A stretch of 31,961 bases of DNA from Pontiellaceae bacterium (GTDB lineage: Bacteria > Verrucomicrobiota > Kiritimatiellia > Kiritimatiellales > Pontiellaceae): NCBI GenBank assembly GCA_016937035.1, contig JAFGWS010000137.1, forward strand, positions 1-31,961. Direction: 5' to 3'. Below, one piece after another: positions 15,716 to 17,518 of the stretch. The stretch's first letter is position 1. The number at the start of each line of letters is the position of its first letter. The notes beneath the pieces are model-generated. The model was not told the DNA's origin and searched no databases. It saw only the letters and a program-made list of their open reading frames with translations. A program made the position numbers and the translations under genes.

Positions 15716-17518
15716 TTATTCCTCCAGAACCCCCTGCTGCCAACGCCGTACGGAGTTGATCAGATAGATTTTATCCGCCGTGCGCAGATCATCCAGCGTA
15801 ACGATCCCCTCCTCCAACGCACCATCTTTAAGCAGATGTTCCCGAAAGGTTCCACCCAGCAAACCGCACTCAATCGGCGGCGTAACCCGCCGCCCGGATT
15901 TTTCAATCACCACATTGGCGATTGTACTTTCCGTCACCTCGCCGCGCTCATTCCACAGAATAACATCGTCGCAATCGCGCCGCGCTGCTTTTGCCTGCTC
16001 ATATACCGTTCGGTGCGTTGTTTTATGAAAAAGAAAAACGTCATACGAATCAATAGGATTCTTTGATAACGCAATATGGAGGGGCGGGCGCTGTCCGCCC
16101 ACGGGCGCAGAGGCCTGCGCTCCTCCGTCTTTCATCGGAATCCGCTGCACTTCAAACGTCCCATTCTGAGAAACCAATAATCGAATTCGATGCGGGACAA
16201 CCAAATTTTCAACGACTCTTTCCAGCTCGGTCTGTATTGCACTAAGCTCCAGCGGAATATCAAAATAAGCCGCTGATTTGCTCAGCCGCTGGACATGTCT
16301 GTTGAACAAAAAAAAGCCGGACTCCGGCTCCCAAAGCATCGTTTCCAGCAATTGGAACTCCGGGCGGGGTTGCGTCAGGATCCGCGCCTTAGTGAGCGTC
16401 TCTTGATATTCCGCTTCAGCTTCTGAATCCCAAACGATTCCACCGCCCACACCATACTCCAACCTTCCCCGCGCGCGGTCAATCAGCGCCGTGCGAATGG
16501 CCACATTAAAAGAGGCCTCGCCCTGCGGTGTCACAAAACCAATACTTCCCGTATAAATTTTTCGCGGCGATTTTTCCAGCGACTGAATAATCTCCATAGT
16601 CTTCGCCTTCGGCGCACCTGTAATCGACGCACACGGAAACAATGATTTCATTACGCAAACTAATTCACCACAAAGACACGTGAAATCACCAAAATCAGCA
16701 GTCTCAGGCTTCGTGACCTTCGTATCTTCGTGGTGAATTGTTCCCCGTACAGTGGAAGTCATCTGCCAGACCGTCGGATATTTTTTGATATCGTACGTAC
16801 TGAGCGTTTCAACACTCCCCGGCTTCGCAATCCGCCCGATGTCGTTGCGGATCATATCGACAATCATAATATTTTCCGCACGATCTTTCTGCGAAGTCCT
16901 GAGCGCCTCCGCCTGCTGAATATCTTCCGCAAATGTACGCCCGCGCCGCGCCGTCCCTTTCATCGGACGCGCAAGAATCCGATCACCGCTCAGAGAAAAA
17001 AAGAGCTCAGGCGATGCCGAACAGACCGAAAAATCACCCGTATCGACAAAAGCCGCGTAGTCCGCCGTCTGTCGATCGATCAGCTCACAGAAAAAGGCCC
17101 ACGCATCGCCGGAAAAAGCGCCGCCCAGCCGATAGGTATAATTCACCTGATAGGTCGCGCCCTCCGCAATCCGCTCCTTAATCTGTTCGATCGCATTCAC
17201 GAATTCCGTCTTGGAAACGGAAGGAGACAACTCACCGAGTGTATACTTGGCTCTGGGAATTCTTTCAATTCGATCAAACACCTCCGGTGCATTGAATAAA
17301 CCCAGACAGAGCAGCGGAAACCCCTCGCTCTCCCGCGTTTTCAGCGCCGAATCAAATGCGGGTGCCGCCTCATAGGAAACAAAGCCGGCGCAAAACAATC
17401 CAGACGCCTCCGCCTCATACAGCATCGGCAGCACCTCTTCAACCCGCTCCGCCTGTAACACCTTAACCGGCTCGCTGAAATGAAGCCAGCGTCCCCCATG
17501 CTTTAATACAACCTTCAA
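15716..17518 (-). CDS. pabBC: Fused aminodeoxychorismate synthase component I / aminodeoxychorismate lyase (PabB-PabC)
   Basis: This 600-residue cytoplasmic bifunctional enzyme makes 4-aminobenzoate for folate synthesis. Residues 1 to about 382 are the chorismate-binding PabB half. It has the covalent-intermediate Lys187 in RPMKGTARRG, the RAENIMIVDMIRND block, FPCASITGAPKAKTMEII (295-311) and YGVGGGIVWDSEAEAEY. Residues about 388-600 are the PLP-dependent PabC half with Lys499 in FHKTTHR, NERGEVTESTIANV and ECGLLGGTFREHL. The start is TTG at 17518, chosen for the GAGGAG five bases upstream and the lack of any better start. Two palindromic DNA elements are read through in frame: one covers residues about 260-286 and one about 465-480, both in surface-loop positions between conserved blocks. 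No glutaminase subunit (PabA) is adjacent. Both active sites look intact, so I call it a gene and not a pseudogene. Confidence 0.92.
   Translation of the reverse strand: MKVVLKHGGRWLHFSEPVKVLQAERVEEVLPMLYEAEASGLFCAGFVSYEAAPAFDSALKTRESEGFPLLCLGLFNAPEVFDRIERIPRAKYTLGELSPSVSKTEFVNAIEQIKERIAEGATYQVNYTYRLGGAFSGDAWAFFCELIDRQTADYAAFVDTGDFSVCSASPELFFSLSGDRILARPMKGTARRGRTFAEDIQQAEALRTSQKDRAENIMIVDMIRNDIGRIAKPGSVETLSTYDIKKYPTVWQMTSTVRGTIHHEDTKVTKPETADFGDFTCLCGELVCVMKSLFPCASITGAPKAKTMEIIQSLEKSPRKIYTGSIGFVTPQGEASFNVAIRTALIDRARGRLEYGVGGGIVWDSEAEAEYQETLTKARILTQPRPEFQLLETMLWEPESGFFLFNRHVQRLSKSAAYFDIPLELSAIQTELERVVENLVVPHRIRLLVSQNGTFEVQRIPMKDGGAQASAPVGGQRPPLHIALSKNPIDSYDVFLFHKTTHRTVYEQAKAARRDCDDVILWNERGEVTESTIANVVIEKSGRRVTPPIECGLLGGTFREHLLKDGALEEGIVTLDDLRTADKIYLINSVRRWQQGVLEE
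16078..16126. repeat. Palindromic element inside the PabC half, in frame
   Basis: This 49-base element has a cloverleaf-like layout. The outer stem is GGAGG (16078-16082) with CCTCC (16122-16126). Two inner hairpins are GGGCGG/CCGCCC (16082-16087, 16095-16100) and GCGCAG/CTGCGC (16105-16110, 16115-16120). On the coding strand it encodes the Gly/Ala/Pro-rich stretch GGAQASAPVGGQRPP between PMKD and LHIALSK. Its GC content is far above its flanks. Confidence 0.75.
16662..16739. repeat. 78-base miniature inverted-repeat element inside the PabB half, in frame
   Basis: The left arm (16662-16680) and right arm (16721-16739) are 19-base terminal inverted repeats with two mismatches (AATTCACCAC-A/G-AAGA-C/T-ACG). 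The similarity continues inward. The length is 78 bases, exactly 26 codons, and the coding frame passes through it. It encodes a His/Asp/Thr/Lys stretch (HHEDTKVTK at one end, CLCGE at the other) between STVRGT and FPCASITGAPK. Sequences of the type TTCACCACGAAG are, from memory, dispersed in many environmental bacterial genomes. Confidence 0.8.

Follow-up and report, generated by a model that had tools for sequence, protein, structure and literature searches.

A palindromic element in frame within a Pontiellaceae pabB gene and its probable kinship with iteron-ended elements that carry GxxExxY, a predicted nuclease

A 78-nt palindrome that lies in frame within the pabB gene of a Pontiellaceae bacterium is probably a MITE-like derivative, without a gene of its own, of mobile elements that have inverted-repeat ends and a single gene, that of the predicted nuclease GxxExxY. 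The palindrome and its neighbouring features (Table 1) are located by their positions in the window, by which we mean the whole stretch of 31,961 nt that was analysed.

Table 1. Features of the pabB locus in the window. Iteron coordinates were counted by hand.
Feature	Position	Strand	Basis
PabB (chorismate-binding) and class IV aminotransferase fusion, 600 aa	15716..17518	minus	Open ORF; Pfam PF00425 and PF01063
Palindromic element, 78 nt, in frame, peptide about IHHEDTKVTKPETADFGDFTCLCGE	16662..16739	minus	Inverted repeat; hairpin; missing from the 12-residue loops of homologues
5' arm (gene orientation), iterons CACGAAG / TACGAAG / CACGAAG	16709..16739	minus	Iterons at about 16732-16726, 16724-16718 and 16715-16709; spacing 8 and 9
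Other arm, read inward, CACAAAG / CACGTGA / CACCAAA	16662..16693	plus	Second and third iterons decayed (judged by eye)
Second variable insert, GC-rich, in the linker that precedes the aminotransferase domain (GGAQASAPVGGQRPPL); less well supported	16085..16132	minus	Length and type differ among 120 homologues; residues 464-474 at pLDDT <50

The host gene encodes a PabB fusion that is 69% identical to a protein of Pontiella sulfatireligans, and the named close relatives of this protein are Pontiellaceae. A preliminary description had pointed to an inverted-repeat element with 19-base arms that differ at two positions and to 26 in-frame codons free of stops, and both observations hold: the arms (16662-16680 and 16721-16739, with 40 nt between them) are complementary at 17 of 19 positions (89%), and the 78 nt lie inside the open 600-aa frame. 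Because the element begins at a third codon position, the frame is kept by its length and not by its phase. Searched for inverted repeats (exact 8-nt seed, no more than 400 nt apart, score of at least 13), the window gave two, the pabB palindrome (score 14.0) and a pair at 16244-16263/16403-16422 (score 15.0), and it yielded no Rfam match and no tRNA. Folded as RNA, the 90 nt of the gene strand from 16656 to 16745 reach -39.2 kcal/mol (z -6.7), a stability equalled in none of 200 shuffles; the plus strand folded as DNA has a z of -3.25, and again none of 200 shuffles was equally stable.

The palindrome falls in the loop between the STVxG and LFPC motifs, which is 33 residues long in the window protein; among 81 loci (80 genome loci with PabB relatives and the window itself; the 33 unreadable loops were dropped) 48 loops could be read, and 30 of these have 12 residues. 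This agrees with the earlier estimate of a loop some 20 residues longer. On balance the loop has grown by 21 residues and not by 26, which implies that about five native residues were lost or replaced. The expectation that relatives would lack the insert was borne out for these short loops and for 38 of 118 loops in a larger protein set, which have at most 14 residues, but not for the closest homologues: P0002 (81% identical) and P0003 (79%) share the insert, with a diverged middle, indicating that it is inherited and not recent. Its peptide was not found among the distant PabB loops that were read, where the preliminary description would have taken its presence as a sign of native protein. 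An AlphaFold2 model of the window PabB, itself only moderate in quality (mean 77.7), has pLDDT values below 50 at residues 211-221, 266-283, 297-303 and 464-474; the second and the last of these segments fall in the two variable inserts, so that insert residues 266-283, whose place on a structure it had been proposed to predict, form a low-confidence segment. From these comparisons we take the 78-nt palindrome to be an insertion into the pabB loop. No inverted repeat scoring at least 13 was found in the linker insert at 16085-16132, a site that also appears prone to insertion, with several repeat-like peptides among homologues.

The arms of the element consist of short repeated units, or iterons. 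In the 5' arm the three iterons agree at 19 of 21 positions, a level reached in none of 300 shuffles, and the CACGAAG iteron with spacings of 8 and 9 is the same as that in the arms flanking two GxxExxY genes (L164 and L099). The window element ends outermost in TTCACC, as does one solo palindrome of P. sulfatireligans, a genome in which TTAACC or AACC is commoner. Judged against the family of elements associated with GxxExxY, it thus has the inverted orientation and the outer end, with the three-iteron arm on one side; as a candidate MITE, it shares terminal inverted repeats with the gene-bearing element through both iteron and spacing, and we infer that the gene-bearing form is the autonomous one. 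As read from the sequences, an end of this family typically comprises about three 7-nt iterons of a C[A/G]CNNA[G/T/A]-like type placed 8-10 nt apart, often with AACC outermost, and two such ends in opposed orientation, with a short spacer between them, form a solo palindrome, which spans 66-97 nt in 14 examples found by pattern.

Solo palindromes of the same design recur in related genomes. In 1.6 Mb of P. sulfatireligans there are 80 inverted repeats with scores of at least 17, of which 16 contain iterons (spans of 68-189 nt), while shuffled sequence gave none. Genes called by a simple ORF rule place 12 of the 16 iteron palindromes of this piece between genes, which suggests that the copy in pabB is rather a tolerated exception. 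The recurrence of the design and the insert-free homologues together support the original proposal of an in-frame insertion of a palindromic element. The exact arm pattern, 17 nt long, has two matches in P. sulfatireligans, one in pabB and the other 1.2 kb away from a GxxExxY gene, and five matches in four of 12 genomes; matches are few because the arms diverge, and later arm counts use a looser pattern and inverted-repeat scans in its place.

Two further observations were made in P. sulfatireligans. A different family of near-perfect palindromes of 58-73 nt (AGGGGTCAGTCC...GGACTGACCCCT) occurs at positions 368176, 369366, 614018, 1363409 and 1373451 of contig G001:C2 (within loci L216-L295), lying in frame in four ORFs, with two copies in one of them; three of the encoded peptides have an EGSV-like start and a GLTP-like end. 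On the minus strand of the same contig, at about 1422757-1425760 (L287:2758-5760), an uninterrupted ORF of 1000 aa has the features of a PriA helicase, with domain matches at residues 6-102, 486-632 and 904-995, and a Y1 transposase domain (260-352) lies in frame within it, flanked by palindromes.

The pabB loop has been altered many times. Among 120 PabB proteins, the best-listed homologues, 118 loops could be assigned to peptide classes that we defined ourselves, 38 of them empty (14 residues or fewer, as above) and 80 expanded; two (P0017 and P0077) could not be parsed, 16 were left as 'other', some of which resemble class C, and P0029 fell into class A by the order of the rules. The expanded kinds include NHEDTKNTK..SCLRGE, LAQRRKDAK..APLRLC, KPRMDANGHE, KPRNTPNTRK, TEDRKESKG..LGGLCGLGV and VDATPSSR. 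A FastTree tree from which the variable regions had been left out, with 29 of 117 inner branches well supported, needs 60 changes to explain the ten loop states, where 9 would be the minimum and shuffled states average 72.9; the HEDTK class taken by itself requires nine, at least six of which are forced by well-supported branches alone. An insert is present in one sister and absent from the other in pairs such as P0031/P0107 and P0049/P0118, and P0072 carries a second insert nested inside one that is also present in its sister, P0063.

These patterns bear on a reading in which the loop is simply native, fast-evolving protein and the palindrome arose by chance or is a regulatory RNA hairpin within pabB. 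The strength of the RNA hairpin fits such a reading, as does the inheritance of the insert by P0002 and P0003, through which it could by now have acquired a function, but at this point sister proteins have no insert or one of an unrelated kind, related genomes carry iteron palindromes of the same design at further sites, and part of the insert is modelled with low confidence. As the sole explanation, a native loop is contradicted by the different inserts at one site, and we regard it as very improbable; insertion leaves room for a retained regulatory role of the hairpin.

Among the loops for which DNA was available, 15 exceed 14 residues, and six of these (the window, L001, L004, L006, L014 and L042) have iteron arrays of a strength reached in two or fewer of 300 shuffles. 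Strong GC-rich palindromes occupy four others (L002, L010, L016 and L041, with z of -7.1, -9.0, -3.7 and -5.6, respectively), and that of L011 is weaker (z -2.2). The palindromes of L002 and L010 have, by eye, a GTAG at one end and in this resemble known REPs, the tag being of the type described in the part of PMC3733652 available to us. The loop is thus a recurrent hotspot or landing pad for elements of several families, some of them REP-like. The company of such palindromes raises the question of whether the window element is itself a REP or REPIN of a RAYT system, an assignment we consider most unlikely: by eye its ends bear no GTAG, at 78 nt it is longer than the 20-40 bp of a tagged REP palindrome, and in type its iterons match those beside GxxExxY genes.

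The arm match 1.2 kb from a GxxExxY gene led us to test the genes of this family (PF13366/TIGR04256) for flanking inverted repeats. The best flank-to-flank repeat scored above 13 for 90 of 112 genes from 45 genomes and above 11 for 102, whereas only 0.86% of 2338 control windows taken at these loci exceeded 13 and their 95th percentile was 11; the remaining 22 genes had no flanking inverted repeat above 13. Repeats above 13 flanked 72 of 85 genes from the phylum of P. sulfatireligans (including four Pontiellaceae genomes) and 18 of 27 from genomes of other groups, reached through their PabB loci. The 112 genes are full-length or near full-length matches picked by hand from three lists (17 of 34, 69 of 114 and 27 of 86), which overlap in the P. 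sulfatireligans genome; the set omits fragments and most relatives of 260-280 aa, L148 (one of the 69) was skipped because it lies at a contig end, and near-copies such as L138/L182 and L094/L095 are included. Among the 77 of the 90 arm pairs that were long enough for an iteron test, 68 exceed the 95% level of shuffles with three iterons of 7 nt, spaced for the most part at 8-10 nt. The iteron types include CACAGAG, CACAGAT, CACGAAT, CACGAAA, CACTAAT, CGCAAAG, CACGAAG and ACAGGAT.

Similarity between arms follows similarity between the encoded proteins, to a small extent. In Mantel tests with 300 permutations the correlation for whole arms was weak (r 0.158; permutation maximum 0.083), as compared with 0.074 for the inner spacer (maximum 0.085) and 0.028 for the outer flank, and for whole arms it was 0.108 (maximum 0.091) among proteins of similarity below 0.6. 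The iteron consensus gave an r of 0.120, about three standard deviations above the permutations yet below their maximum of 0.137, and no significant correlation at protein similarity below 0.6 (r 0.069, SD 0.042).

GxxExxY is predicted to be a PD-(D/E)XK nuclease on the strength of its family, its fold and its D..ExK residues. K87 is invariant and D75 nearly so in 72 GxxExxY proteins, and dN/dS values of 0.07-0.31 in the seven pairs for which they could be computed, including 0.09-0.13 in three displaced pairs, point to purifying selection on the gene. A profile search of PDB sequences returned only T7 endonuclease I, with E-values (0.37 and 0.58) that are not significant. PF13366 is mentioned in PMC9756366, and in the portions of two papers that we could consult GxxExxY is named once, in passing, in text that does not speak of inverted repeats or mobility.

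Arms are concentrated in genomes that have a GxxExxY gene; the tendency is strong in one phylum, weak in a second, and has exceptions. Across 59 genomes of the P. sulfatireligans phylum, the arm pattern, which also counts the arms that flank genes and covers only some iteron types, has 696 matches in the 26 genomes that encode GxxExxY and 15 in the other 33; a reversed-pattern control has 35 (29 of them in one genome, G016) and 8, respectively. Four or more arms were found in 21 of the 26 genomes with the gene and in none of the 33 without, the genomes being related by descent and thus not independent; the other five of the 26 have fewer than four arms, and two of those have none. More than two arms per gene are present in 15 of the 26. 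The trend is weaker in the second phylum (that of G074, a Desulfobacterales MAG), where at least four arms were found in seven of 19 genomes with the gene and in four of 40 without it (96 and 62 arm matches; Mann-Whitney p 0.02).

Within genomes, the type of the arms can also follow that of the gene. The single GxxExxY gene of G034 has CGCGAAT ends with a spacing of 10, and all 19 arms of this genome, including three close to the gene, are of the CRCGAAT type with the same spacing; among the 21 genomes of its genus, only G034 has the gene, and the other 20 have one arm or none, the nine congeners with a single match each lacking a pair of CRCGAAT iterons. In G056, which has two genes, both iterons are CRCRGAT, the type of gene L131, in 11 of 14 arms. 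The one gene of G030 is of the CACAGAT type, and CACAGAT and CACGAAT arms are mixed there, half of them not of the exact type of the gene; G029 has 157 arms, mainly of three types in the part listed. In G030 we also noted a cluster of iteron arms of both types (C1:2194362-2232637; L316, L319, L322 and L325), nearly all listed on one strand and many of them 70-210 nt apart. Among the exceptions, genomes of the second phylum with arms and no detected GxxExxY gene, are G132 (nine arms) and G135 (35 arms). In G135, where the arms listed are mostly of the CACAGAG type and there is no Y1 transposase match either, loss of the gene, an incomplete assembly or another partner are possible reasons.

The arms might instead be the substrate of an ordinary transposase, for example of the Y1/RAYT or DDE kind, that moves the element in trans, with GxxExxY as mere cargo, perhaps a defence or addiction gene. 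Flanking inverted repeats by themselves do not identify the acting protein, and mobilisation of REP palindromes by RAYTs has already been proposed (in the part of PMC2817692 available to us); a Y1 transposase domain is present in P. sulfatireligans, Y1_Tnp scores above its cut-off in five of nine genomes searched (most often in G050, with 14 matches), and G135 has its 35 arms without the nuclease gene. On the other hand, Y1_Tnp has no match in G056 or G029 and only a broken fragment below threshold in G034, genomes with 14, 157 and 19 arms, respectively, which suggests that Y1 transposases are not the general answer; the uniform match between the arms of G034 and its one gene also speaks against cargo, and the four GxxExxY proteins that were tried matched no PADLOC defence model. 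We regard a transposase acting on passenger GxxExxY genes as a serious but rather unlikely alternative.

Several pairs of loci suggest that the GxxExxY elements have moved. In three pairs, at different loci, the likeness is confined to the element: L120/L125 (88% over 500 nt), L187/L188 (86% over 495 nt) and L203/L215 (94.6% over 427 nt), a pair within one genome, in which the right end of L215 differs from the arm expected there. One intergenic site, upstream of a gene whose first codons resemble aspartokinase, is occupied in L151 by a solo palindrome of the CACGAAA type and in L173 by a full GxxExxY element of the CGCGAAT type, and thus by elements of different iteron types. At the ends of these four pairs, neither a target-site duplication nor a precise empty site was evident by eye. 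In three other loci (L206, L179 and L150) the GxxExxY gene has a whole palindrome in each flank, as if adjoining elements had piled up, and the G030 cluster is a further arrangement of this piled-up sort.

In the mechanism we propose, the palindrome would have entered the pabB loop as a gene-less member of the GxxExxY-associated family and would have persisted because its length is divisible by three, because it contains no stop codon and because the loop tolerates changes of length. GxxExxY would bind the iterons and cut at the ends of the element or at an extruded hairpin, host repair would then move or copy the element, and gene-less palindromes would be mobilised in trans; we infer this role of GxxExxY in mobilisation from the distribution and design of the arms. 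A more general proposal, whose truth we judge to be evenly poised, is that a lone PD-(D/E)XK nuclease of about 125 aa, with neither transposase nor recombinase, recognises three-iteron ends and spreads hairpin-forming solos in trans in several phyla. Such elements would form a previously unrecognised class of transposable element in which the sequence and spacing of the iterons have diversified along with the nuclease, and solos inserted in frame in permissive loops such as that of PabB would be a continuing source of new protein segments.

The proposal suggests a role for GxxExxY, a widespread family of small proteins to which the literature searched assigns none, and makes it a candidate partner for the short palindromes of several bacterial groups. 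If it is true that the nuclease alone moves palindromes, then PD-(D/E)XK-driven mobility without a transposase would be a new mechanism. The pabB gene, for its part, lends itself to counting recurrent in-frame insertions and to testing how they affect the enzyme.

Each of three known systems shares features with the elements described here. Rickettsia palindromic elements (RPEs), according to the part of PMC10969869 we had, are short palindromes that lie in frame in genes and are read as peptide inserts; the pabB palindrome likewise lies within an ORF, keeps the frame and has empty homologues, but it differs in its iteron-array arms, its candidate autonomous member and its host lineage, and the iteron copies in the P. 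sulfatireligans piece are mostly intergenic. RAYT genes, in the available portions of PMC2817692 and PMC3733652, lie between palindromic ends in inverted orientation; the ends correspond to the gene they enclose, gene-less copies, with an abundance tied to the gene, occur elsewhere, and intragenic REPs are reported in PMC3733652. The logic of gene plus solos is the same as in GxxExxY elements, whereas the proteins and ends differ, RAYTs being Y1/HUH transposases acting with GTAG-tagged REPs and GxxExxY a predicted PD-(D/E)XK nuclease with three-iteron ends. The repeat units (RU) of enterobacteria are small MITE-like mobile repeats that add in-frame peptides to genes; compared by description only, they differ in host, and no nuclease partner is named for them in the portion of PMC2759123 that we consulted. 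Among the titles and abstract openings returned by searches of openly available papers, none described a nuclease partner or iteron ends. Set beside these sources, as far as they were available to us, in-frame palindromes and the logic of a gene with its solos are known, and the nuclease partner and the iteron ends are new.
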